A stretch of 64,000 nt of DNA from Rubritalea profundi (GTDB lineage Bacteria > Verrucomicrobiota > Verrucomicrobiia > Verrucomicrobiales > Akkermansiaceae): NCBI RefSeq assembly GCF_002954445.1, contig NZ_MQWA01000001.1, positions 1,771,781-1,835,780 of the forward strand, read 5' to 3'. The position numbers and the translations under genes were made by a program. Shown piece by piece: positions 7,993-63,788 of the stretch (position 1 is the first letter of the stretch; each line of letters begins with the position of its first letter). The notes under the pieces are model-generated. The model was not told the DNA's origin. It saw nothing but the letters and a program-made list of their open reading frames with translations, and made no database searches.

Positions 7993-8409
7993 TTAGTGTT
8001 TCTTTCCCCATTTTTTCTTATCAGTTGTCTGGGGGTTCTCCACCGAGCTGAGTACCAGCTCTTTGCCATTTGGGCTGAGGGTGAATACCTTTCTCGTGGT
8101 CGCGTTTTCCTTGTGCAGAGTCACGGCCTCCAGTGCTCATTGGAGCGAGATGAGTCGGCCAGAAAAGCTCTAGGGCTCGGTCGGTAGGGTGAACTCGAAT
8201 GATTGCTCGCCTTGCGCTTGGGCATCCCAATTGCGTTCTTCTATCAGCTCGATGTCCTGGGTGCCACGGCCCTCGGTGAACCAGAAGAGGCGAAGCTCTA
8301 TTTTTTTGGTTGTAGCAGCAGCCGACCAAATGACTTTACCGGAAATGGTGGTCCCCGTTTGGAACTCGGAGCTCGTTTGGTCGAGCTGGATGGAGATGGA
8401 GTCAGTCAT
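7993..8409 (-). pseudogene. Arrestin-like small protein interrupted by in-frame TAG (8170-8172) and TGA (8137-8139)
   Basis: Single frame reads MTDSISIQLDQTSSEFQTGTTISGKVIWSAA...FEFTLPTEP*SFSGRLISLQ*ALEAVTLHKENATTRKVFTLSPNGKELVLSSVENPQTTDKKKWGKKH*. The sequence stays protein-like after both stops. Confidence 0.7.
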
Positions 8410-8413
8410 GTGC

Positions 8414-10126
8414 TTAGTTTTGAGTATCTGTTGGAAGGACGGTTACTTCGTAGTTGTCCTTAATGTCGGGCCAGAAGGAGATTTCACCGCGCACGCGCAG
8501 TGACCACTTGATCGCGTTGTTTGAGCTCTTCCAGCTTGGCATGGTGTCTGAAGGTAAAACGATTTCGGCCTCGCCACGTCTCACCTTTCGCGGGTCTTTG
8601 GTATCGATCAATGCTTGCTCGTAGAAGATGGATGTGTCGGTGACGGTGTCGGTTCCACGGCGGTATCTGGCTTCTTCTTCGCCGACTAGGTAAATGGCGA
8701 AGTGGCTGAGTTTGTGTTCGCCGCTGAGGGTTTTCCACTTCAGCTGTGTGGCTTGTCCCAGTGTGATCTCTGCAGGAGCTAGCGTGAGTATTGGAGCTGC
8801 ATTGAAGCACGCGAGGATGCGGTAAAAGACATGGAGAATCATTCCGATGCCAACGGCCACGAAGGGAGTGAGAAAAAGGGTGAGGAACCAATCTGGCTCA
8901 CCTTTTTGCCATGTTGGGATCAGCTGGCAAAGAAACACCGAGACGATGCCATTCCAAAATGCTGCGATGAAGAGTACTCCGAAGATCCAGCCGATGCGCT
9001 TTCCGCGCGGGCTAAATTCCTTGCGATGACTGGAGCGATACGCCGAGGTATCTGGGCGTGATTTTGACTTGCGTAGTTTGGCTCTCGCGCTGAGTGCTTT
9101 CTTTTTCTTTTTGAGTCCCCAAATGAGGCCGCCGACTCCGACTACTATGAAGGGAAGGGGGAACAGTGAGAAGGCTGCCCACCAGCCCATTTCACGTTCT
9201 AACAAGGCATCGTGTGGGTTGTCTGGATTGACAAAGCAGGTGATCTGTTTGCCTGGTGGGTGGGCCTTTACTTTATCTTGCTTGCCGCCTCTACCGCTTG
9301 AGCTACCACCCATCAGGTCGACGTTGTTGGACTTATAGACTCGCTCACCGTAATTGTATTTATAGAAAATATCAGCGCTGTAGGTGTCGCCATCATCGCC
9401 ATCGTGGGTACGCACTTTACTCCAGACCACTGTGGCGGTTTTAGACTGCCAAGATTGCGCATCGAAGTACTTCGTCCACATAGGGATGACAAAGAAGATC
9501 AGCACAGCAAATCCAGCTAAACCAAATATGCCGAAGAAGGGGATCATAATCAGGTTACCGACTTTTTCTTTTTTCTTGGAAGAGAGCGCCTTGTCCTTCT
9601 TTCGGAAAGATTTGAATCCCATGGTCAACACGCCAAGCCCTATCAATACGAAGAAACCACCAAAGATAGCAAAGCCGATGCCGCTTCAGCTGGAATCGCT
9701 GGTGGGGTAGATCACCGCCTCTGAAGGGTCTTCTGGATTGATGTAGCACTCGGTGATCTCACCTTGGTGCTGGAGGTCTATCAGCTCGGCGAGTTCGTGG
9801 TAGTCGTCCTCGCCCTTTTTGTCCTGCCATATTTTGGTGCCAGTGTGTTCAGAGCCCTCCCAGCGGTAGCTGTATTTGATGACTGGCTGAAAAGCTGGGT
9901 CTAACCCACTATTGGAATTGATTTTAAAGTGCTCCACCTCGCAGGGAGCTGTCGGCCACGAGGATCGTTCAGCATCAGAGAGGCTGGATTTGACCCCAAG
10001 GACCACAAAAATGCTACTGAAAGCGGTCCAAATGAGGCCAAAGATGATCAGAGAAAATTTACCACCCTTGTTGGAACCATGAGCTCCACGGCCTTTGTTG
10101 GAGCTTCGGAATCGGATGGTAGCCAT
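8414..10126 (-). pseudogene. Tandem DUF3592-type membrane protein interrupted by an in-frame TGA (9686-9688)
   Basis: ORFs 9686..10126 and 8414..9646 share one frame (starts differ by 480 nt). The join is ...EAVIYPTSDSS*SGIGFAIFGGFFVLIGLGVLTMGFKSF..., with the TGA just before a TM helix. Both halves have CxxNPxxPxxA motifs. Confidence 0.75.
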
Positions 10127-47790: not shown

Positions 47791-48525
47791 TTAGTTACTT
47801 AACTTATCAAGATAAGCCTTTGCAGCCTTTAGTATTTCTAGGCTGTTAGGTGAATCCGAGTGCACGCACGCGGTGATGTATTCGTAGTGCGCAGGTAGCT
47901 CTATCGTTGTGCCGTCGAATGCGATGAGAGAATGCTTATCGGTGAGTAGTTCTAAGCGTTCAAGAACCTCGCTGACCGAGCTAATCGTCGCGTGTGGGTG
48001 AGTGCGCGGGAGTAGGTTGCCGTCGGCTGCGTAGTGGCGGTCGAGAAAGACTTCTGGGATAATTGGCATGCCGCGGTCATCAGCCTCCTCAGCTATTTTT
48101 CCACCGGCAAGACAGACGATGGAAATGAGGCATCGGCTACGGACGAAATCTAAGTAGGTCTTACGGTATATTTCGTCGGTTTCTACTAGGTGGTAGAGAG
48201 CTCCGTGGAGCTTGATGTGGTTGAGGTCAGCAGCGCCGATGAAGCGCTGGATTTGAATCTCTAGCAGCGCTCTAAAATCCTCTGGAGAAAAGTCATAGGG
48301 CAGGCTGCGTCCACGGTCGGCTGATGGGACACCTGGGTGGGCGCCAGTGCTCACTGCGATAGGTTTTCGATTTTCTGCGAGAGTGGCGCAGTCTAGGATA
48401 GACTGGCGGTCGCCGGCGTGGCCACCGCAGGCGATGTTTGCCATGTGAAGGTGGGTCATAAGCGCGGCGGTCTGAGCGGGAGACTCCCACTCACCGAGGT
48501 CGCAGTTGAGAAAAATTTCTGGCAT
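47791..48525 (-). CDS. pxpA: 5-oxoprolinase subunit A (LamB/YcsF family)
   Basis: MPEIFLNCDLGEWES...MANIACGGHAGD...GAHPGVPSADRGRS...HIKLHGALYH. The track ORF is over-extended; the true ATG is probably 48525. Confidence 0.9.
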   Translation of the reverse strand: MPEIFLNCDLGEWESPAQTAALMTHLHMANIACGGHAGDRQSILDCATLAENRKPIAVSTGAHPGVPSADRGRSLPYDFSPEDFRALLEIQIQRFIGAADLNHIKLHGALYHLVETDEIYRKTYLDFVRSRCLISIVCLAGGKIAEEADDRGMPIIPEVFLDRHYAADGNLLPRTHPHATISSVSEVLERLELLTDKHSLIAFDGTTIELPAHYEYITACVHSDSPNSLEILKAAKAYLDKLSN

Positions 48526-48596
48526 AGCGGGATTATGTGCAAGCCACTGCCCAGGCGAGTCTAATCGATGCGGATTTCTTTTCCTAGCATCGACCT

Positions 48597-49457
48597 TTAT
48601 ACCCAAATAAATGAGAGGGGACGCTGGGCGTGTTGTTGGACTAGCCAGCTCAAACCTTCTGCTGCGACTCGACCAATGATCGGGTAGCCGCCAACGGTTG
48701 GGCCGTCGTTGAGTGTGATGATTGGTTCGCCAGAGGGTGGAAGCTGGAGGCTGCCAACGAGAGTGGGAGTGCTGTGGATGCTGTGTTGGTGCGCTAGCTG
48801 TGACGAAACATCGCTGAGCAATCGGTACCCGGTGCGATCCGAGCGTGAGGAGACCGTCCAAGTCTGCTGAGTGATACGCTGCATTTGCGCGTCAGTGAAC
48901 AACTGGGTGTGAGGGCCAGGGTAGAGACGAAGATTGGGTGGCTGGGTGTAGTCGCGTTGAGCTGCTGCAGGTGTGCGGCGAACAATCAAGTGCTGGGGTG
49001 ATGGCTGCGCCAAATGCGCGTGGAGCGGGCTGTCTTGTTGGATAAGATCGCCTAGATCGGATCTATCATGGCGCGAGGTGGAGCCAAAAACTTTGCCAGC
49101 ATCCCAGCCGCCAGCAATGGCGAGGTAGCTCCAGACGCCCTTGGCGCTGGGAGTGAAGCGTAGAGTCTCGCCTGCATACACATAGCGGCCGGACCAACTA
49201 GGCAGTTGTTTGCATTGATGTCCACCCACATGGGCGAGCCAGCAACCACGGAGGATTTCTATTTCAGCACCACCTAACATCAGTTCTAGAACCGTGTCGC
49301 TGGCGAGGTTGTGGACCAGTGCGTTTGCGGCAGAGGCGGCAAAGGGATCGATTACTCCAGCGGGGGCAACGCCGTAGTTGAGCCAGCCGGTTCGTCCTAG
49401 GTCTTGGTAGCTGATCCCCGCGCCCAACTGCGTCACTTTTGCGCTACTTGCTGTCAT
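48597..49457 (-). CDS. pxpC: 5-oxoprolinase subunit C
   Basis: YQDLGRTGWLNYGVAPAGVIDPFAASAANALV; SDRTGYRL; LNDGPTVGGYPIIGRV. Confidence 0.9.
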   Translation of the reverse strand: MTASSAKVTQLGAGISYQDLGRTGWLNYGVAPAGVIDPFAASAANALVHNLASDTVLELMLGGAEIEILRGCWLAHVGGHQCKQLPSWSGRYVYAGETLRFTPSAKGVWSYLAIAGGWDAGKVFGSTSRHDRSDLGDLIQQDSPLHAHLAQPSPQHLIVRRTPAAAQRDYTQPPNLRLYPGPHTQLFTDAQMQRITQQTWTVSSRSDRTGYRLLSDVSSQLAHQHSIHSTPTLVGSLQLPPSGEPIITLNDGPTVGGYPIIGRVAAEGLSWLVQQHAQRPLSFIWV

Positions 49458-50080
49458 GCTGTTGGGATAAATTTTAGATGATCCCCTGGCTGGAGGGCGA
49501 AGGCGGTTGTTCCGTTACATGAGGGGTCAAAAAGTGGATGGTCTGTGTGGCCTAACCAATTCCAACCGCCTGGGCTAGGGATGGTGTAAATGCCCGCGTG
49601 AGAGCCGCCGATGGCCACAGCTCCCGTCGCCATCTTAGTGCGAGGAACTTTCCTCCGTGGCAGATGAAGCTGGGGAGCTAGCCCATCAAGGTAGGCGAAG
49701 CCTGGGCTGAATCCTAGGAAACGAACAGTGTAGAGCGCATCGCTGTGCAGTTGGATGACTTGCTCTTCGCTCAGACCTATCAGTGCTGCGACTTCCGCTA
49801 GATCAGGGCCATCGTAGTGCACTGGAATGCTGTGGAGAGTCGGCTCGGGCTTCGAACTCTCAGAAGACGACTTGGCGCTTTGAATCTCAGCGAGGACCTC
49901 TTCAGCGGAGGTGTTTGGGCGGGTGCGCAGCAGTAGGCTATCGTAGCCCATGATCGATTCCAAAATGACCTCAGAGTGCTGGTGGTGGATTGTGAGTAGC
50001 ACAGCATAGTCATCGCTCGACTCTAACTGGAGAAGCCAGTGGTCTGGACCATAGGGTAGAATGGAAAATGGGTGAGCCAT
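49454..50080 (-). CDS. pxpB: 5-oxoprolinase subunit B
   Basis: YDGPDLAEVAALIGLSEEQVIQLHSDALYTVRFLGFSPGFAYLDGL; AVAIGGSHAGIYTIPSPGGWNWLG. Confidence 0.92.
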   Translation of the reverse strand: MAHPFSILPYGPDHWLLQLESSDDYAVLLTIHHQHSEVILESIMGYDSLLLRTRPNTSAEEVLAEIQSAKSSSESSKPEPTLHSIPVHYDGPDLAEVAALIGLSEEQVIQLHSDALYTVRFLGFSPGFAYLDGLAPQLHLPRRKVPRTKMATGAVAIGGSHAGIYTIPSPGGWNWLGHTDHPLFDPSCNGTTAFALQPGDHLKFIPTA

Positions 50081-53953: not shown

Positions 53954-54126
53954 ATGAAACACACACTGCCACTTAGCCTTTTTACAGTAGCGTCCATAGC
54001 GGCAGTGTCTCATCTTTACCCAAGATTTCCAACAAGACCTTCCTAGTGAGGTTTCTGTTAAGGTTTCTGTTAAGGATGAGCCAAATTCAATACGGATAAA
54101 ACTCCCCCTGGCAGGCATATCCATCA
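53954..54126 (+). pseudogene. Truncated/frameshifted remnant of a secreted-protein gene
   Basis: MKHTLPLSLFTVASIAAVS then frameshift to TQDFQQDLPSEVSVKVSVKDEPNSIRIKLPLAGISIKGGSS; protein-like sequence is lost where the lipase gene begins. Confidence 0.55.
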
Positions 54127-55992
54127 AGGGCGGATCTTCCGGCAGCTCGCGGGCACCCTTTCTCCAACATGTTCATAGAGTACGGCGCGGATATGCTCCA
54201 CATTGCTAGGGTCATTGGTCGCGCTCGTATGGGATGCTGGAATGAAATACTCCGAGTGGACACCATCCAAATGAGAGCTCCAGTATGGCACCACTCCGTC
54301 GGAACTTCCCTTGCCGCTCCCTTTGCCCCGGTCACCGATGATCGAGTGCATTTTCGGTTTGTATGGCATGGGCTGTTCCAGTAGAGCCAGCAGAATCGGC
54401 GAGTTCTCTTTCAAGTTGTTGATGCTGGAGCTGGGCTCATCAAACACCGACTGGCCCAATGCTGTGGTCGACGAAAGCATACTCCCACTTAATTCGTTGA
54501 CGGTATGAAGTGGCAGCCGGATCAGATTGGCCCCGAATCGGCCCAACCACGTATTTGATACGGGACTGCCCCGGTGCGGGCCACAAATGAAAACCACCCG
54601 TGAGATGTCCGGATTCGCTTTGAAATAGGCGCTGCGGCGCAATCGTTCCCGTTCATCGGCGGTGACATCCAGTTCAGTGATCGACTCGCTGAAAAACTTG
54701 GCCCAAAACTCATCCCCTCCGTCGTGAATCTGGAAGTTGGTTAAATTGCAACCCATGCTGTGTCCGACCATCACCATGTCACGCATCTTCGGGTTACTCC
54801 GTTGAGGGTCATAACGTTTCTGAAACGCCTTCAATTCATCCCTCAATTTCGCGGCATTCACTGAGATCGGAAATCCGGTCGGATAGAAAAACACCAGAGG
54901 CTGATAGTTTTTTCGAATCACAGGATCCGCATATACCTGATTAATGACCTCTCGCCAGGTCATCGGACTCGACAACAAACCGTGCACAAGGATCAACGGA
55001 ATCCGATCATCTCGATACGGTTCGAGTGTGTAGAGCCCATCAAAGCTTGTATTTTTCGTAGGCTTCATCATTCCGACCCATCCGGCGGAGGCAGGGGGGG
55101 CGACATTTGTCGCAGTGGCCAAAGCCGCGGTGAAGTCGCCGGCAAGGATATAACTCTTCCCTCCAACCGTGACTGATTCGTCTTCCACCAGATCGTGAAG
55201 CACTACTTTCGCAGCCCTTTCCTTTCCCCACTCCACCACGGCCGTAAGAGCAAGCGCATATCCAGAGTGGGGCGGCATGAAGGGATCCTTGGCGCGGCGC
55301 TCGGGCGTTGGGCCGCGGTAACCCACCAAGCTGCCACCGACTCCGGGTCTCACATTGACACGCTCAAAGCCCTTCACTTTGATCCGGCTCGCTGGAGTCA
55401 AGGTGTCATAGAATCCCGGTTGATTGCCGTCGCGCTGGCCCTTTGCCCAAGCAAGCACATAATCTCCCAGTGGCCCTCGGGCTTTGATTTTCTGATTCCC
55501 GGCAACATGCTGGTGAAGCAACCATGCCAGTTCTGCATTGGCTTCGTTGTAGATCTCAACCAGATTCGCATGCACGGTGGAGTTCTCCAACGGTAGTCCT
55601 TTTTCGCTCAGCTCAATGGCCGTTAGAAGATATCCAAACACACCACCGGTCTTCGCACGATAGTTCCGAAAAGCCTGATGGATCGACACTTCGGCTGCGG
55701 CGAGCCGAAATTCTGGCCGATCATCCGCTTTGAGCCGTTGTGCCAGATTCTGAACCGTCCCGGCTGGATCTTTACGTGCTAGCTGGTATAATCCTTCCTG
55801 TTTTAGAACAGCGCGGGTGACTGGCGAATACGTCTTCCCATCAATCACCAGGTCCGCCCCAGCGGATCGAGTCACCGGCTTGCTCAGCACCTCGATCCCA
55901 GGCTTCGTAGCGCACGCTGAGAAAAGTAATACCGCTGCAATGGCCCCGCTACTAGTGCCTAACCATTTAAAACGTTTTATGTTGAGTCTCAT
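54124..55992 (-). CDS. Lipoprotein alpha/beta-hydrolase (lipase/esterase-like)
   Basis: AAVLLFSACATKPG lipobox; LILVHGLLSSPMTWREVINQV; GHSMGCN (GxSxG); YFIPASHTSATNDPSNVEHIRAVL. Confidence 0.88.
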   Translation of the reverse strand: MRLNIKRFKWLGTSSGAIAAVLLFSACATKPGIEVLSKPVTRSAGADLVIDGKTYSPVTRAVLKQEGLYQLARKDPAGTVQNLAQRLKADDRPEFRLAAAEVSIHQAFRNYRAKTGGVFGYLLTAIELSEKGLPLENSTVHANLVEIYNEANAELAWLLHQHVAGNQKIKARGPLGDYVLAWAKGQRDGNQPGFYDTLTPASRIKVKGFERVNVRPGVGGSLVGYRGPTPERRAKDPFMPPHSGYALALTAVVEWGKERAAKVVLHDLVEDESVTVGGKSYILAGDFTAALATATNVAPPASAGWVGMMKPTKNTSFDGLYTLEPYRDDRIPLILVHGLLSSPMTWREVINQVYADPVIRKNYQPLVFFYPTGFPISVNAAKLRDELKAFQKRYDPQRSNPKMRDMVMVGHSMGCNLTNFQIHDGGDEFWAKFFSESITELDVTADERERLRRSAYFKANPDISRVVFICGPHRGSPVSNTWLGRFGANLIRLPLHTVNELSGSMLSSTTALGQSVFDEPSSSINNLKENSPILLALLEQPMPYKPKMHSIIGDRGKGSGKGSSDGVVPYWSSHLDGVHSEYFIPASHTSATNDPSNVEHIRAVLYEHVGERVPASCRKIRP

Positions 55993-56104: not shown

Positions 56105-56923
56105 CTAAAAGAGAAACGTGATTTTGAAGCTAGTGCCGAAATCTTCAGGGCCGTTCTCCGGGCTTTCCGACCAGTAGCGTATGCCTGCTTGGAGCTGTAT
56201 TTTCTGGCCGCCAAACGTCGTCAGCTTGTTTACGAACACATTGATCGGAACGGACCATTCATTTGAATCCCAGTCGTAGCTCGTCTCCGATTGTAGCACA
56301 TAACTCCATGCATTTGCTGTTGTATAGACAAGGAACGGCTGCAGAAACGTGCTGTCGAGGTCGCCCGCGCTACTGCGGGTATCATGAATCCCCGTGATGT
56401 GATTGGTTAGCGCGCCATAAGTCCATCCGCCTTTTTGGATGAGGGCTACAGCTGTTAGGCCCGCACCCAAGGTGCCCGCCCCGAGAAGGCTATCCGTGCT
56501 TGTTGGCCAGAGGACCGCGGGGCCAACACCATAGGTAAGTGTCCCCAGCGCTGTTTCATCTGACTCTGGTACAAGGAAGAAACTCTGCAGTGTGTCACTC
56601 AATCCGAACTGACTTCCCGAAGGACCAGCGACATCGTTCTGCCAGACGACGGGAACGATTGTCCTGACAACGAGGGAGAAATCGTCGCTAAGTGAGAAGG
56701 GGATTACCGGTTGTATAGCGAGAGTTATATTGTCGCCGTCATCGGGACCAAGGCCAGTGTTGAAGCCGAAGTCAAACGGCACACTAATCATGGACGAGAT
56801 CGGGTTGGCGAGCTTTTTTGCGAGCTCCTCATCCGATGGTGCTCCCGAGTCTTGGGCTTGAACCGGTGCCACAGCGATGAGGGCGAGTCCAGTAATAATT
56901 GGGATAAAGGTCGATTGATTCAT
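56105..56923 (-). CDS. Outer-membrane beta-barrel protein (transporter-like)
   Basis: Signal peptide MNQSTFIPIITGLALIAVAPVQAQ; amphipathic strands; C-terminal Phe (SFKITFLF); start at 56923 preferred. Confidence 0.75.
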   Translation of the reverse strand: MNQSTFIPIITGLALIAVAPVQAQDSGAPSDEELAKKLANPISSMISVPFDFGFNTGLGPDDGDNITLAIQPVIPFSLSDDFSLVVRTIVPVVWQNDVAGPSGSQFGLSDTLQSFFLVPESDETALGTLTYGVGPAVLWPTSTDSLLGAGTLGAGLTAVALIQKGGWTYGALTNHITGIHDTRSSAGDLDSTFLQPFLVYTTANAWSYVLQSETSYDWDSNEWSVPINVFVNKLTTFGGQKIQLQAGIRYWSESPENGPEDFGTSFKITFLF

Positions 56924-57003
56924 GTGATTTAGTCTGGTTTGTCTGGTTTGTCTGGTTTTTGGTTGTCTGTTCAAACTATTTTATGGCAAATTTGTGTGAT
57001 CGG

Positions 57004-58305
57004 CTAAAACACCGTCCTGAACCGGAGGCTGAATACTGAGGCGTGATCGGTGCTGGGATTTAAAGCGGGATTAATCACTGATTGGTAACTCAATGTCGTG
57101 TCAACCCCGGGGAACAATGGGAAGCGGTAAAAGATCTCAGCGTTGTATTCGTCGCGTGATCCTGCGGCGGTCGGCTCCACCCAGTTGAGCCCGAGACCGA
57201 GGAGGTCATTTTTCATCCCCGCCTTCGAACCGAGCGGTTCGTAGAGGAGCACATTCGCCCCCGCCTGATACTTGTAGAGGGCTGCTTCATTAAAGCTCTG
57301 CCCCCAGCGGGTAATCCCGATGAGTCTGCCATCTTTTGACAATTCTTGCTCGTACTTGAGCGAGTAGCCCCAGCCGTCTTTACCGGTATTGGCATTAATT
57401 GGAGCTCCGTCCTCGGTGCCGTCGGTGTGCCAGATTGTGAGCTTCGAATAGTCCGCTCTTCCAGTTCCCGGCACGATTTTGGCAGCAACTTCGAGAGCGG
57501 TGTAGAAGTCGCCAGCTCCAATGTCTCCCCAGTCATAGCGATTACCATTCGCATCCGCAACCAGTCCTATGACCTTGAAGCTGTCGCTGGGGTGCCACGC
57601 TCCGACCGCTCCTAGGCCCGAGTCCGGGAATGCGTCCACGAAGAAACCGGTACCGGCATTCGGAAGAAACGTAGTGACTGGGGTGATGTGTTTGGAGGTG
57701 CCTAGGATGGCATCCGTGGTGATCTTGCCGGCTCGGAAAGCCCAGCCCGCTTCCTGACTGCCCTGCTCCCAGTAAAGGTTTCGAATCAGAACGGTTGGTT
57801 GATACTTCGAGAAGGCATTGCCGGTGCCAATCTGGCTTCCCAGATTCACGAAGCCGAGATCCTGTGGTCCCGTGGTCCCATAATCCCACCGTCCCTCGAG
57901 GTGTGCGAACAATTTTCCAGCGCTTGGTTTACCCCGGTTGATCAGTTCCCAAGACGCCACTAGATCTGCATCCGTCGTCGTTCCCCAAGTGTTCATACCC
58001 GGTTTGGCTTCTGACAAACCTTGGAAGAGATGGTTGATCGTCAATCCCAGCTTGATCCCGGATGCTTCGTAAATGGAATCCTTCATCTCACCCGAGGCGT
58101 CGTGAAGCGGCTTCAGAGGAGAAACCGGCAGCAGGGATTCCCGTTGGGCTCTTCTCTGATCAACTTCCAGCAAGAGGTTCGACGGATCCTCAGGAGCGCT
58201 ACTAAACGGAGAGCCAGATCCCGCCCCTTTTTCCTCATCCGCGTTCAGCATGGTGAAACTACCCAACAGACTAATAGACGCGATGGTGACAATTAAAGAT
58301 TTCAT
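57004..58305 (-). CDS. OprB-like (carbohydrate-selective) porin
   Basis: Signal peptide MKSLIVTIASISLLGSFTMLNA; SGIKLGLTINHLFQGLSEAKPGMNTWGTTTDADLVASWELI...; C-terminal VFSLRFRTVF. Confidence 0.82.
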   Translation of the reverse strand: MKSLIVTIASISLLGSFTMLNADEEKGAGSGSPFSSAPEDPSNLLLEVDQRRAQRESLLPVSPLKPLHDASGEMKDSIYEASGIKLGLTINHLFQGLSEAKPGMNTWGTTTDADLVASWELINRGKPSAGKLFAHLEGRWDYGTTGPQDLGFVNLGSQIGTGNAFSKYQPTVLIRNLYWEQGSQEAGWAFRAGKITTDAILGTSKHITPVTTFLPNAGTGFFVDAFPDSGLGAVGAWHPSDSFKVIGLVADANGNRYDWGDIGAGDFYTALEVAAKIVPGTGRADYSKLTIWHTDGTEDGAPINANTGKDGWGYSLKYEQELSKDGRLIGITRWGQSFNEAALYKYQAGANVLLYEPLGSKAGMKNDLLGLGLNWVEPTAAGSRDEYNAEIFYRFPLFPGVDTTLSYQSVINPALNPSTDHASVFSLRFRTVF

Positions 58306-58480: not shown

Positions 58481-58930
58481 TTAGCCGACCGTGACGGTGC
58501 CGTCTTCAGCGATAGATATAGGGTCACCGGTCTTCACTGCCTCAAGGAACTCGTCGCCGAGCAGATCGATGGTGATGACGCGACGATCGTACCAGACGTC
58601 ATCGATTATCAGTCCGCCGGCCGCGATGCTGTCGATGTGCGAGGAGAAGAGGAAGGCCTTGAGGCCCACACCCATTTCGCTCACACCCATGAGTGCTCCC
58701 GCGCCCATGGTGGAACCGACGCACTGTGAGGTGCACAGAATCGCATCCTTCATGTCCTTTTTGAACAGGTCCGGGTTGTTGGCGTCTGTGCAGGGCGCAG
58801 ACTCGGTATTCCCTGCGAACATGTTTTCGAAGTAAGACCCTGTGAGGTTGAAGGGCATCTTCGAGACCAGTGCCTTGCCCTCGAGTTTTCCGGAAAGAAC
58901 GGGACGTCCTTTAAATATTTTTTTAGCCAT
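58481..58930 (-). CDS. Aconitase X swivel-domain (small) subunit (DUF126-type)
   Basis: FKGRPVLSGKLEGKALVSKMPFNLTGSYFE...CTSQCVGSTMGAGALMGVSEMGVGLKAFLFSSHIDSIAAGG...VITIDLLGDEFLEAVKTGDPISIAEDGTVTV. Confidence 0.78.
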   Translation of the reverse strand: MAKKIFKGRPVLSGKLEGKALVSKMPFNLTGSYFENMFAGNTESAPCTDANNPDLFKKDMKDAILCTSQCVGSTMGAGALMGVSEMGVGLKAFLFSSHIDSIAAGGLIIDDVWYDRRVITIDLLGDEFLEAVKTGDPISIAEDGTVTVG

Positions 58931-58985
58931 AGTTTTATCTAGTTGAATGTTTTGTTCGAATTTTTCTCAATTTTGGTTTTCGTGC

Positions 58986-60584
58986 TTATGATGGGACCTT
59001 GCCGCTGACGATGATGTCGACCAGGGTCTGATCCGGGAAGTAGCGGATCGACGAGTAGTTCCGCGTCTTGGCGGAGTTGGTGATGCCCTGGACACGGTCC
59101 GAGAAACCCTTGGTGCCAGCCCAAGTGACGCCGCACATCGGGGTAGCAATCATGCCCGCTTTTAGCATCTTGCCGGCGAGTTCGCCGTCGTCTGCGATAA
59201 GTTGGAGCTTCACGACGTTGGCGCAGAACATGTAGACAGGAATCGCGGTCTTTTCCTTGCCATCCTTTTCGAGCCCCTCTGTGACCAGTTTCCCCCACTT
59301 TTTCATTTCGTAGAGAGTGTTGTGCGGGCATCCGATGAAGGCGGCGGTGGGATCTCCGTCTTTCCTCGGCCACAAGTTGTCAAAGGTCTTGATTGTTTTC
59401 TGCTCCTCGGCGTCGTCATAGACGTAGGTCTGGTAGCCCTCTTCTAGCAGCTTGCGGCCCTTCTCCTTGGCGTCCGGGGTCAAGTTCTCGACATGGTAGA
59501 GGCCCACCGCGCCAGAAGCTGCAGTGGCACTGCCCATGGCTTTCAGCAGGTGCATGTTGTCCTCGGTGACTTCGCTGCCTTCAAAGTACTTATCGATGCC
59601 GGCGACGAGGGGAACATCTTCTACTACTTTGCGTCCGATGGCGGTGCCGAGCACCCCCCAATCCGGAGCCTTAGAGGTCTTGACTTCCACCAGCCATTTC
59701 GCCTGGCGACCCTCGTCGGTCATGAGACCGAAGTAAGGAGCCTTGGCCGTAATGGCGCTGATCAGGTCAATGCCGGCGCCGTTCCTGTTGGTCCGGATAC
59801 CGAGTACAGAGTTGCCATAGTTCACCGCGGAAGACTCCGCCCAGGCCACCATGGTTCCGGGCTTGGGTGCGTTGCCCACTTCTTTCACATAGCAGGCACA
59901 CGAGCGTTTGTTGAGATCCGGTGCGCCGAGGCGGGCATGAACCCAGTCGAGTTCCTTCTGCAGCGGATAGCCCTCGTAAACGATCTGCATTTCCTTCTCG
60001 TTGTTCTGGACGTTGAAGCAATCGTAGGGGCGCGGGTTCACCGTATAGGGGGCATAGGATTTGAGTCCGGCCGTGGCGCATTCATCGAGCATCTTGATCA
60101 TCGAGCTGAGGTAGGGGGCGCCGGGGTAGAGGTTGCTGTGGGGTGCACCGCCGAGGTCGACGAGCTTCTCGGCACCGAATGTGTTGCCGAAGACCACCTG
60201 GATCTTCATGAGCTTGGCCATCTCCGGGCCCTTCGAGCCGCCCAAGATCGCCTGCTCATCCTTGGTTAGTTTCATTTTGTGCTTGGCGGCCTCTTCAGCC
60301 GTGGCATTGGCCTTGGACGCACCGGTGAAGGTGGCTTTCTGGCCTGTTGGCTTGCCGTCGGGTCCGAGACCCTGCATGTCGGAGTCGAGTAGGCTTCCAG
60401 CGAAGGCGGGAACCTTGCCGGTTCCTGCCGCGGCAGCCTTTGCGGCCGGGACCGCCGCTGCTTTAGCCTGGACTTGCGAAGCTGTGACTCCGGCTAGCGC
60501 GCCGGGTGTTAGTACTGACAGCGAAAGGGTCTTGGCGAAAGAGCGCCGGCCCATCTTTGATTTCATTTCTTCTTTAGGGGTCAT
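58986..60584 (-). CDS. Aconitase X catalytic (large) subunit (DUF521-type) with Tat-like N-terminal signal
   Basis: KLTKDEQAILGGSKGPEMAKLMKIQVVFGNTFGAEKLVDLGGAPHSNL...AWAESSAVNYGNSVLGIRTNRNGAGIDLISAI...AFIGCPHNTLYEM; N-terminus MGRRSFAKTLSLSVLTPGALAGVTASQVQA. Confidence 0.85.
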   Translation of the reverse strand: MTPKEEMKSKMGRRSFAKTLSLSVLTPGALAGVTASQVQAKAAAVPAAKAAAAGTGKVPAFAGSLLDSDMQGLGPDGKPTGQKATFTGASKANATAEEAAKHKMKLTKDEQAILGGSKGPEMAKLMKIQVVFGNTFGAEKLVDLGGAPHSNLYPGAPYLSSMIKMLDECATAGLKSYAPYTVNPRPYDCFNVQNNEKEMQIVYEGYPLQKELDWVHARLGAPDLNKRSCACYVKEVGNAPKPGTMVAWAESSAVNYGNSVLGIRTNRNGAGIDLISAITAKAPYFGLMTDEGRQAKWLVEVKTSKAPDWGVLGTAIGRKVVEDVPLVAGIDKYFEGSEVTEDNMHLLKAMGSATAASGAVGLYHVENLTPDAKEKGRKLLEEGYQTYVYDDAEEQKTIKTFDNLWPRKDGDPTAAFIGCPHNTLYEMKKWGKLVTEGLEKDGKEKTAIPVYMFCANVVKLQLIADDGELAGKMLKAGMIATPMCGVTWAGTKGFSDRVQGITNSAKTRNYSSIRYFPDQTLVDIIVSGKVPS

Positions 60585-60874: not shown

Positions 60875-62506
60875 TTATTGCGACTCGAGGTGCAGCTTGA
60901 GGATGCGGATCATTTCGTCCTGAGCCTTGCTGCTGTCCTGAGCATTGTGCCAGGCCGGGACTACGAGCTCAGAGTCTACTTCTGTTAGGTGGGAGCTGGT
61001 GTACTTAACGACCCCATCCGAACTGTTTTCTAACTTTCCGCCCCAGCCTCGATCGCCGATGATCGAGTGGTAGGTAACTTTCTCCAGCTTTGGCCTGGTG
61101 AGGTTATACTTCAATGTTGGGTTGTTGTACTTGAGCCGTTGGACGCCATCCATTCCTTCTTGGATATCAAAGATGCTTTTTCCCAAACTGGTTAGATCTT
61201 GACGGTAGTGTGCTGGATCAAGACCTACGATGTCTTTTGGAATTTCAATGAGATGTGAAGTGAGTTGGCCAATCCAGTTGTCAGCGTAGGATGAGCCTCG
61301 GTGAGGAGTTGCGATGAATACTGCGCGGGAAACACAGTCGAGTGGTGGTGTCTCTAAGAGCTCAACAATCGATTTTTTCCCCATTGTTTCGACGGTTAGA
61401 GTGTCGATATTTTTGTTGTATATTTCTGAAATGGCTCCTCGATAATCCCTGGTGATTGCACTTGTTAGGATGCCACCCATGCTATGACCTATCATGACCA
61501 TCTCATTGGCGTTGAAGCCTGCACCATGCTCCTTAAGATGCACGTGTAGCTCTTTGATTTCATTTTTTAAACCTGCAGCGCTGTGAGAGAGAGGTAGTCC
61601 TGTAGGATAGAAGTATGCATAGAATTGATAGTTTTCACGAATCACGGGATCTTCCAGTAGTTCGTATGTAGGCTTGATCCAAAGGTTAGGGGTGGCCGCG
61701 AGACCATGGACGAAAATCACAGGAATTAGTTTCGGATCAATAGGCTCGAAAGAGATAAGGCTCATTGACTCTATCCCATACTCAGGACGTAAGACGTTGA
61801 TCAAGCCTTGGTAGATGAGAGATTTAGTAGCAGCTTGGGAAAATGCATGGGGAGTGGTGTAGTTCGCTGAGAGCTGCGGACTCTCACGTGAGTCTATCAG
61901 TTGAAAGCTAACTGAGTTTCCGTCACTCCAGTGAGCAAGAGCTGTCACAGAGTATATGTAGCCAATTTTAGACATGAACGGGAATTTCTTGCTGCGTTCA
62001 ACCGACCAGGCTGAACGTGCGGTCATAGGCACACCTCTACCGTGAGTCTCTATCGCAGGACTGAGAGCTGAACTGGCGTATTGATTAGCATAATGAAGAG
62101 TGTCGATGTCGGTCAGCTGTGAAGCTTTTGTGTGACAGTGGGAAGCTATCTGGAAGCTGTGCTCACCTGAGCTTACAGAACTACCCCAGAGCTGGTGAGT
62201 TTGAATCAGTTCTAGCCCTTTACCTAGGGATTGCTGGTATGCTTTGTAAGCCCAATAGGCTTGCATATGGTAGGGCTCTAGCTCCTTTGCTGCAGACAAA
62301 TAGAGCGCAACTGCCTTCTCAGGTTGATGTTTGTACATCCCATTCGCTTTGCGGATTTTACTGAATGCAGGTTTAGCATAGCTTTTCTCAGCTCTAGGGA
62401 TTTTCCTGAGCAATTCGGTTTGCTCATTCTGCGAGAGCTCAATCACAGTGGAGACACATGAGCTCAATGCGTAGCATAGGAAGAGAGATAGAATGAGGCG
62501 AATCAT
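60875..62506 (-). CDS. Lipoprotein alpha/beta-hydrolase, paralog of 54124..55992
   Basis: LCYALSSCVSTVIE lipobox; VIFVHGLAATPNLWIKPTYELLEDPVIRENYQFYAYFYPTGLPLSHSAAGLKNEI; GHSMGGI. Confidence 0.88.
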   Translation of the reverse strand: MIRLILSLFLCYALSSCVSTVIELSQNEQTELLRKIPRAEKSYAKPAFSKIRKANGMYKHQPEKAVALYLSAAKELEPYHMQAYWAYKAYQQSLGKGLELIQTHQLWGSSVSSGEHSFQIASHCHTKASQLTDIDTLHYANQYASSALSPAIETHGRGVPMTARSAWSVERSKKFPFMSKIGYIYSVTALAHWSDGNSVSFQLIDSRESPQLSANYTTPHAFSQAATKSLIYQGLINVLRPEYGIESMSLISFEPIDPKLIPVIFVHGLAATPNLWIKPTYELLEDPVIRENYQFYAYFYPTGLPLSHSAAGLKNEIKELHVHLKEHGAGFNANEMVMIGHSMGGILTSAITRDYRGAISEIYNKNIDTLTVETMGKKSIVELLETPPLDCVSRAVFIATPHRGSSYADNWIGQLTSHLIEIPKDIVGLDPAHYRQDLTSLGKSIFDIQEGMDGVQRLKYNNPTLKYNLTRPKLEKVTYHSIIGDRGWGGKLENSSDGVVKYTSSHLTEVDSELVVPAWHNAQDSSKAQDEMIRILKLHLESQ

Positions 62507-62600: not shown

Positions 62601-63788
62601 TTAGAATTCGATATGCCCGCGCAACCCTACAACCATAGCGAAGTTTTTACGCAATCCATCGCCAACCAGAAGCTGGGCGTTAGGAGTTATTTGAATGTTG
62701 AAAGGGCCTTGGTACCTATAGAGTGTCTCAAATACGCCTTGAATATCAGCGGTGTCAGAGGACTGACCAGCTCCAACACCGAAGCCGAGAAAGTCATTTT
62801 CTCGCATATTAGAACCGAAGCCAACAACTGCCATCTTATTGAGATCAGTCTGACTGCCGTTGCTGTTAGAAAACCGAGCGAATAAGGATTTTTCGTTGTC
62901 ATCAAAGTGGTGCTCAAAGCCACAACTAAATCCGTAGTCCTCTTCGCGTTCCTCTGTAGAGTCGGAGCCCCAGAACATCGCTTGTATATGGTTTTCAGTC
63001 CCGTCTCCGAGCCAGGTGAAGCCCGGTTGAATAGCAGTAAAAATGTTGCCAGAATTAAGATCAAAGTCGACCTGTGCTCCTGTTTTGCTCGCTTGGACTT
63101 GGGTCAGAGCGTAGGTGAGGTCGAAATTGTCGTTAATCTGCCAGCGTGCTGTGGCTCCAGCGCCAAATCGAGGAAACGCGACAGTCGGGTTGGTTGAGAA
63201 TACACGGTTGAGAAATGCCTTCTTTGCTCCTCTAAGGGCGTGTGAGTCAAGCCGACTTTCTACACTCAGCTGGCCATAACGGAGTTCGATTCTTCCATCG
63301 TGGAGGATGTGTTGGATGTATAAGTCTGGAATTTCAAAACCACTGTCACTGAATCCATCAGTGGTTCCTAATATAGCTCCAATGTTGTTTGCTAACTCCG
63401 CAGCGGAGTTCTCTAGCAGCGCATGCCGGTGGCGCAGTCGAAACTTGAGAGCCAATAGCCCGTCGCGCTCACCTCCGATGCGCTCAAGTAGTCGGCTTGG
63501 GTATTCTTCACCCACAAATGTCCAGCGGCCCGCGAGCGAAAGTTCTCCAGATCCGCCAGACTCACTATCGCCAATAGCTCCTTGGAATAATGCACTGTAG
63601 CTCAGTGCGACATTGAGCCGATCGGTTGAAAATATGTATTTGAGCGGGAGTTCATTATCCTCTAGGCCCGCGATCGACAAACTCTCCCCCTCCACCCCGG
63701 TGGGGGCAGTGGCCTGTGTCTCGCTCATCGCAGTGTGGCAGCACGCAAAAATCAAGATTATATAGAGAGGATGGAGAATGCTTCTCAT
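62601..63788 (-). CDS. OprB-like porin / outer-membrane barrel
   Basis: Signal peptide; NVALSYSALFQGAIGDSESGGSGELSLAGRWTFVG; C-terminal VVGLRGHIEF. Confidence 0.75.
   Translation of the reverse strand: MRSILHPLYIILIFACCHTAMSETQATAPTGVEGESLSIAGLEDNELPLKYIFSTDRLNVALSYSALFQGAIGDSESGGSGELSLAGRWTFVGEEYPSRLLERIGGERDGLLALKFRLRHRHALLENSAAELANNIGAILGTTDGFSDSGFEIPDLYIQHILHDGRIELRYGQLSVESRLDSHALRGAKKAFLNRVFSTNPTVAFPRFGAGATARWQINDNFDLTYALTQVQASKTGAQVDFDLNSGNIFTAIQPGFTWLGDGTENHIQAMFWGSDSTEEREEDYGFSCGFEHHFDDNEKSLFARFSNSNGSQTDLNKMAVVGFGSNMRENDFLGFGVGAGQSSDTADIQGVFETLYRYQGPFNIQITPNAQLLVGDGLRKNFAMVVGLRGHIEF

Follow-up and report, generated by a model that had tools for sequence, protein, structure and literature searches.

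A predicted twin-arginine-exported, two-subunit aconitase X in Rubritalea profundi

Two adjacent genes in a 64,000-nucleotide stretch of the Rubritalea profundi genome (hereafter the window) encode the large (catalytic) and small (swivel) subunits of an aconitase X (AcnX), which is the single AcnX in the whole genome (~4.17 Mb) (Table 1). Both open reading frames were found where the original prediction had placed them, and its identification of the large subunit as AcnX (DUF521) was confirmed by a Pfam match to PF04412 (254 bits, E 2e-75, large-subunit residues 104-512) and by fold; the peptides quoted from the large subunit (MGRRSFAKTLSLSVLTPGALAGVTASQVQA, AWAESSAVNYGNSVLGIRTNRNGAG, AFIGCPHNTLYEM) are all present. 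In the AlphaFold model, the core (residues 104-532) is confident, with pLDDT mostly 80-97, and disorder extends over residues 1-100. According to Foldseek, the best PDB match of this model is TkAcnX, the large subunit from Thermococcus kodakarensis (7cnr_A, E 4.6e-29, TM 0.87 on target); the next matches are the Agrobacterium enzyme and ordinary aconitases. Going by the orthologues, the large subunit may start at ATG 60554 (MGRRSF). The small-subunit gene lies 55 nt downstream, and its product scores 30.4 bits against the AcnX swivel family (cut-off 27) and carries no signal, in agreement with the signal-less DUF126 subunit described before.

A scan of genome contigs gave six further loci. Two come from MAGs of Verrucomicrobiota (L007; contig shared with L002/G041) and Desulfobulbaceae (L008), and a third from a Chromatiales MAG (L009) whose contig ends within the AcnX gene, so that the N-terminus is missing. 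The others belong to the Olavius symbiont Delta 1 (L010, two AcnX copies) and to a pair of Microbulbifer agarilyticus strains (L011, L012); one more Microbulbifer genome was added later. The relatives are 53-87% identical to the window protein, and the small subunits of the nearest loci share 88-95% identity.

Table 1. Features of the AcnX locus in the window and of related loci.
Feature	Position	Strand	Remarks
Alpha/beta-hydrolase lipoprotein, possible operon member	54124..55992	(-)	relative near L007 AcnX
Second outer-membrane-type protein	56105..56974	(-)	relatives beside AcnX in L007 and (truncated) L010
OprB-like outer-membrane porin	57004..58305	(-)	PF04966; 46-72% identity among loci
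AcnX small (swivel) subunit, without signal	58481..58930	(-)	PF01989 (AcnX_swivel_put)
AcnX large (catalytic) subunit with N-terminal extension	58986..60584	(-)	532 aa from ATG 60584
AcnX catalytic core	58989..60275	(-)	residues 104-532
Predicted Fe-S ligand C484	59133-59135	(-)	= TkAcnX Cys342
Predicted Fe-S ligand C419	59328-59330	(-)	= TkAcnX Cys283
Predicted Fe-S ligand C229	59898-59900	(-)	= TkAcnX Cys110
Clade-conserved R185 (NPR motif)	60030-60032	(-)	
Linker, residues 41-103, Ala/Pro-rich then conserved (...FAGSLLDSDMQGLGPDGKPTGQKATFTGAS...)	60276..60464	(-)	disordered in model; 61-103 under purifying selection
Tat-like signal peptide, residues 11-40 (MGRRSFAKTLSLSVLTPGALAGVTASQVQA), possible VQA cleavage site	60465..60554	(-)	RRxFxK + 22 uncharged residues
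Twin-arginine motif RRSFAK, residues 13-18	60531..60548	(-)	R, R, F kept in relatives with N-terminus
Second alpha/beta-hydrolase lipoprotein, upstream, same strand as AcnX	60875..62506	(-)	association uncertain
Second OprB-family porin	62601..63788	(-)	21% identity to first; association uncertain
L076/L106 type AcnX pair	L106:7856-8410 and 8392-9651	(-)	G1050:C88; also L076
Tat-tagged SDR-fold and BKACE proteins	L010:10701-16462; L009:1877-3910; L008:9009-9962		

The same-strand genes around the window AcnX all look like envelope proteins. An orthologue of the OprB-like porin stands beside AcnX in L007, L009, L011, and L012, making it a conserved partner, and L008 has a DcaP porin instead; the second outer-membrane-type protein has no Pfam match. 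No dedicated chaperone gene was recognised, and promoter and terminator scans, which returned fewer sites than in shuffles, were uninformative. Elsewhere in the window (47791-50080, (-)), three adjacent genes resemble a 5-oxoprolinase PxpB/PxpC/PxpA set; the longest open reading frame of the last one overlaps the previous gene by ~260 bases, and its true start is probably further downstream.

The N-terminus of the large subunit had been described as an RRxF(L/A)K-like twin-arginine signal followed by an Ala/Pro linker. The window protein meets the features of a Tat substrate, namely RRSFAK, a stretch of 22 uncharged residues, and an AxA-like site (VQA-K), with an h-region that is rich in Ser/Thr. 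RRxF was kept in all relatives that have an N-terminus (6/6), giving six distinct signals when that of the window is counted; these N-termini follow the form M-x-RR-x-F, reading MGRRSFAK in the window and MKRRNFVK, MDRRKFIK, MNRRQFIK, MNRRKFIK, or MKRRNFCQ in the others. While the core of the window protein is identical to that of L007 at 398 of 429 residues (93%), residues 11-40 of the signal are identical at 10/30 (~33%), with ten gaps, and this alignment is too poor to separate replacement from divergence. The signals have diverged or been replaced almost wholly with the twin arginines retained, as for functionally constrained signal peptides.

Profile searches gave a divided answer to the objection that no Tat signal would be predicted. 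The TIGR01409 scores of both L010 orthologues (22.9 and 19.0 bits) were above the cut-off of 16.7, that of the L008 orthologue was just under it (14.4 and 15.7 bits in two runs), and neither TIGR01409 nor PF10518 matched the window's own signal. A chance RR motif was rejected: just 14 of the 657 ORFs at the fetched loci combine RRxFxK with a following stretch of 13 or more uncharged residues. Apart from one AcnX small subunit, all of these (13, with re-fetched duplicates counted) are AcnX large subunits or neighbouring Tat-tagged SDR-fold proteins (Tat-SDRs) from loci of this type. TatC is present in all seven host genomes.

These features could also belong to a twin-arginine-like or Sec-like anchor on the cytoplasmic face, with catalysis staying inside the cell. 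Such an anchor would be consistent with the failure of the Tat profiles on the window signal and with the absence of a clear signal peptidase site from L007, and the long flexible linker would suit an anchored enzyme as well; however, it is RRxF, not just hydrophobicity, that is retained while the rest of the signal changes, the window, L008, L010, and L011 show AxA-type sites, and the neighbours are porins and other Tat-tagged enzymes. We consider anchoring unlikely, though it cannot be set aside lightly.

Between signal and core lies a linker of ~60 residues. Other AcnX large subunits that were inspected either have their start at the M-x-LT-x-EE core or are type I fusion proteins, and an ATG exists at the corresponding Met104 (MKLTKDEQ), so the start might have been mis-called and the upstream frame might be fortuitous. 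Against this, residues 61-103 are under purifying selection, with pN 0.076 vs pS 0.613 between the window and L007, pN 0.12-0.16 vs pS 0.65-0.80 in other comparisons, and pN/pS of ~0.12-0.22 among four distant loci, so they are translated. Moreover, the open frame with RRxF is kept by all relatives, and no conserved Shine-Dalgarno sequence precedes Met104. A start at Met104 is hardly credible, and the possibility raised earlier that close homologs would lack the extension did not hold.

In this clade, the small subunits begin MAKK or MANQ, and none has a signal. Export of multi-subunit Tat substrates through one signal is established, as in hydrogenases and PaoABC (PMC10924467, PMC4273604), where the signal likewise stands on one subunit of a folded, cofactor-loaded complex; those are redox enzymes, whereas the window complex would be a hydro-lyase of the aconitase superfamily. 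On a different AcnX branch (L076/L106), from a genome that belongs to the phylum of the Olavius symbiont, the arrangement is reversed: here it is the small subunit that has the Tat signal (MATTRREFLKTAGVTLVASGMVMSGLNEAAAQ; TIGR01409 18.5 bits, above cut-off), and the large subunit begins MELTKREQ without one. Owing to this reverse arrangement, Tat tagging of AcnX heterodimers has apparently originated two or more times, with the signal on one subunit or the other. The suggestion that the small subunit hitch-hikes on the large one therefore gains support from the signal-less small subunits of the whole clade and from an independent lineage of opposite arrangement, while co-export itself is an inference. 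As a separate observation, the L106 large subunit reads AWASSGS, in which the conserved catalytic Glu is lost; a DUF362-like protein with a Tat tag and a urocanase-like one are encoded near the L106 AcnX.

Residues of the active site were assigned by the published position correspondences between AtAcnX and TkAcnX (PMC8184944). C229 and C419 were aligned directly to 7cnr; C484, K506, and Y510 lie beyond the directly aligned stretch and were assigned by family alignment and spacing, the spacing (C+22=K, K+4=Y) being identical to that of AtAcnX C508/K530/Y534. The three cysteines are invariant in the Tat clade, and so are E250, S251, S252, K506, Y510, and S73-T74 of the small subunit (equivalents of TkAcnX Ser62/Thr63), which match catalytic residues. 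All eight large-subunit residues are kept in the Tat clade together with its sisters, and most ligand and catalytic residues are also invariant in more distant aligned proteins, so the loss of Fe-S ligands that would have refuted the original prediction has not occurred. Membership in type II AcnX is met by family and fold, by a separate adjacent swivel subunit, and by the three Cys ligands; the active cluster of the type II Aeropyrum enzyme is [4Fe-4S] (PMC10040528).

The exported complex might nevertheless be a scaffold or binding protein that is no longer an Fe-S dehydratase, considering that Fe-S hydro-lyases are sensitive to oxygen and uncommon outside the cytoplasm and that the substrate-specific residues differ from both known enzymes. 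The invariance of ligands and catalytic residues in the clade, the strong purifying selection on the core (dN 0.041, dS 0.737, window vs L007), and the presence of anaerobic lineages among the hosts speak against a purely structural role, which we regard as improbable.

Compared with TkAcnX, an archaeal mevalonate-5-phosphate dehydratase (7cnr, 7cns; PMC8184944, PMC10040528), the window protein shares the fold, the two-subunit organization, the three cysteine ligands, the catalytic Glu/Ser/Lys/Tyr, and the small-subunit Ser-Thr at ~28% identity, but it has a signal and a linker, and an NPR motif replaces the phosphate-binding loop. In the test for mevalonate-5-phosphate dehydratase (type IIb), which failed, Gly48, Val49, Ser50, and Asn53 of that loop correspond to N151, L152, a gap, and G155. 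AtAcnX, which is cytoplasmic, shares the core fold, the cysteines equivalent to Cys273/Cys508, and the Glu, Lys, and Tyr; its Cys510 is Val486 in the window protein, in line with the type II ligand set. The hydroxyproline contacts Trp35, Thr72, Asp203, and Ile206 are not kept (the TkAcnX-mapped positions being Thr30(S), Met75(S), Ser150, and a gap), and in the same test the NCBIfam equivalog scored 126 bits vs a cut-off of 700. Alignment to the AcnX structures, which the original prediction had put forward as a check, thus places C229 and C419 but keeps the substrate residues of neither known enzyme. R185, conserved in the clade and its sisters, lies two residues past the equivalent of TkAcnX Asn79, a substrate-phosphate contact, and by inference it may bind a second anionic group. 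Because both known substrate signatures are lost and because of the position of R185, the most likely substrate is inferred to be a 3-hydroxy acid that carries a further negative group and differs from both known substrates.

Further enzymes with Tat tags neighbour AcnX at other loci: an SDR-fold protein at L008, L009, and L010 (twice), and a BKACE-family protein at L009 and L010. PF10518 was above cut-off for the L008 Tat-SDR and TIGR01409 for the L009 BKACE, and in the genomes searched, close matches of both were found only at the AcnX locus. Both are absent from the window's locus, and the genome of the window has no BKACE match and only generic SDRs. The best PDB match of the Tat-SDR is halohydrin dehalogenase 7wkq (E 4.5e-40). 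Like HheG-type halohydrin dehalogenases (7wkq, 8h8y, 5o30), all four Tat-SDRs have S-x12-Y-x3-R (motif 2) and lack the NAD glycine motif; they differ in being Tat-tagged and in motif 1, T-x4-F/Y-x-G (PMC11976700), whose aromatic residue is Gln/Asn in 4/4. An ordinary NAD dehydrogenase was rejected, since there is no NAD glycine motif and Arg stands in place of the catalytic Lys. The Tat-SDR is accordingly described as halohydrin-dehalogenase-like by its motifs and is not assigned as a halohydrin dehalogenase; an enzyme without need for free NAD would suit the periplasm. In the literature searched, nothing joined halohydrin dehalogenase with twin-arginine. In the Olavius symbiont, the intact Tat-SDR gene is adjoined by a short, broken repeat of its C-terminus (G431:C493:8207-8353; 45% identity, internal stops), suggesting duplication and decay.

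The BKACE proteins of L009 and L010 match PF05853 with 120-137 bits and keep the HxH and RxGxED residues, which we take to form the metal site. The BKACE reactions known so far use acetyl-CoA, whose presence outside the cytoplasm would not be expected; as a result, the reaction of the Tat-tagged proteins is undetermined. A CESH[D]-type epoxide hydrolase was rejected, because the positions of Arg11 and Glu14 of that cis-epoxysuccinate hydrolase (PMC6429283) read Ala and Gly, a mapping that assumes a 20-residue tag in the PDB chain. A route from halohydrin through epoxide and tartrate to oxaloacetate is attractive, and it was not adopted, as the CESH[D] residues are missing.

Taken together, we favor with reasonable confidence the reading of the window complex as a type II AcnX heterodimer that is exported folded by Tat and acts as a periplasmic (de)hydratase, its substrate arriving via a porin. 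The heterodimer would be assembled and its Fe-S cluster loaded in the cytoplasm; the twin-arginine signal on the large subunit would then target the complex to the Tat translocase, and the signal-less small subunit would cross together with it. Cleavage of the signal after VQA would leave the flexible linker of ~60 residues ahead of the core. In the periplasm, a 3-hydroxy acid, probably with a second anionic group, would be dehydrated or hydrated, having entered through the neighbouring OprB-like porin. Sequence analysis supports the AcnX identity, intact cluster and catalytic residues, the loss of both known substrate signatures, a twin-arginine signal conserved in one clade, TatC in the hosts, and a porin neighbour; actual export, cluster type, co-export, activity, and substrate are inferred. 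The earlier proposal of a Tat-exported AcnX with a hitch-hiking small subunit is hence supported as far as sequence can, with export and activity remaining inference. Counting against it are the window signal, which is unmatched by both Tat profiles and has a Ser/Thr-rich h-region, the L007 signal without a clear signal peptidase site, the rarity of periplasmic Fe-S hydro-lyases, the lack of a recognised dedicated chaperone gene, and the missing Tat-SDR and BKACE at the window locus.

To our knowledge, the aconitase superfamily members characterised so far reside in the cytoplasm or in mitochondria. The Tat signal in all close relatives with an N-terminus points to an unrecognised Fe-S dehydratase outside the inner membrane, and the novelty lies in the compartment, which is new for an otherwise known enzyme family, the export being inferred. 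In the literature searched, nothing combined 'aconitase X' and 'twin-arginine', and the AcnX literature that was found treats other members. A periplasmic AcnX, if true, would give Fe-S hydro-lyase chemistry a new location and limit the substrate search for uncharacterised AcnX subclasses to porin-permeable molecules; Microbulbifer is a culturable host genus, which makes the proposal directly testable.

In a tree of 58 large subunits, the eight Tat-clade members (the truncated L009 counted in) fall on one side of a branch with support 100/100, apart from 50 signal-less ones; therefore, the label was gained once in this clade. The four nearest sisters (L093, L094, L087/L099, and a plasmid gene of Rhodococcus opacus PD630, WP_005245199.1) are signal-less and begin at the core. 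The sister clade (L093, L094, L099, and R. opacus) shares 38-39% identity, an NPR/DPR motif, and an adjacent small subunit, whereas it has no extension and lies in sugar/polyol, transporter, or aromatic catabolic neighbourhoods. In R. opacus PD630, the AcnX subunits form one fused ORF in CP003953.1 (L105) and two overlapping genes in NZ_CP080955.1 (L104), a disagreement between assemblies that is probably a sequencing frameshift.

The homolog search that had been proposed thus found Tat-type AcnX in Verrucomicrobiota, Desulfobulbaceae, an Olavius symbiont, and Microbulbifer, with a scattered distribution. Among 58 relatives of the window's genome, a real match was found only in G041; in 388 genomes drawn from the phylum, nothing turned up besides the window's own genome and a single weak, partial hit; 1/258 genomes had a match in the class of the Desulfobulbaceae MAG, and 3/48 in Microbulbifer. 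This scatter, the 87% identity of the window protein to the Chromatiales protein (L009), and the G+C of the large-subunit gene (58.8% vs 51.1% for the window) point to horizontal transfer of the AcnX locus, as judged from sequence. No member of the close clade was found on plasmids, only distant signal-less AcnX (best 39% identity).

A further reading, which we offer tentatively and hold to be possible rather than probable, is that a mobile periplasmic catabolic module around the Tat-exported AcnX has been passed among marine and sediment bacteria of several phyla. It would comprise a porin, the Fe-S (de)hydratase, the SDR-fold enzyme without NAD motif, and the metal-dependent BKACE-fold enzyme, each enzyme being folded and loaded inside and exported by Tat, with no free NAD and presumably no CoA needed. 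The mobile-module reading rests on three or four loci. A PpiC-type isomerase gene adjoining a HupE/UreJ-like gene was also observed near AcnX in the Verrucomicrobiota MAG (L007:7992-9934) and in the Desulfobulbaceae MAG (L008:251-2442).
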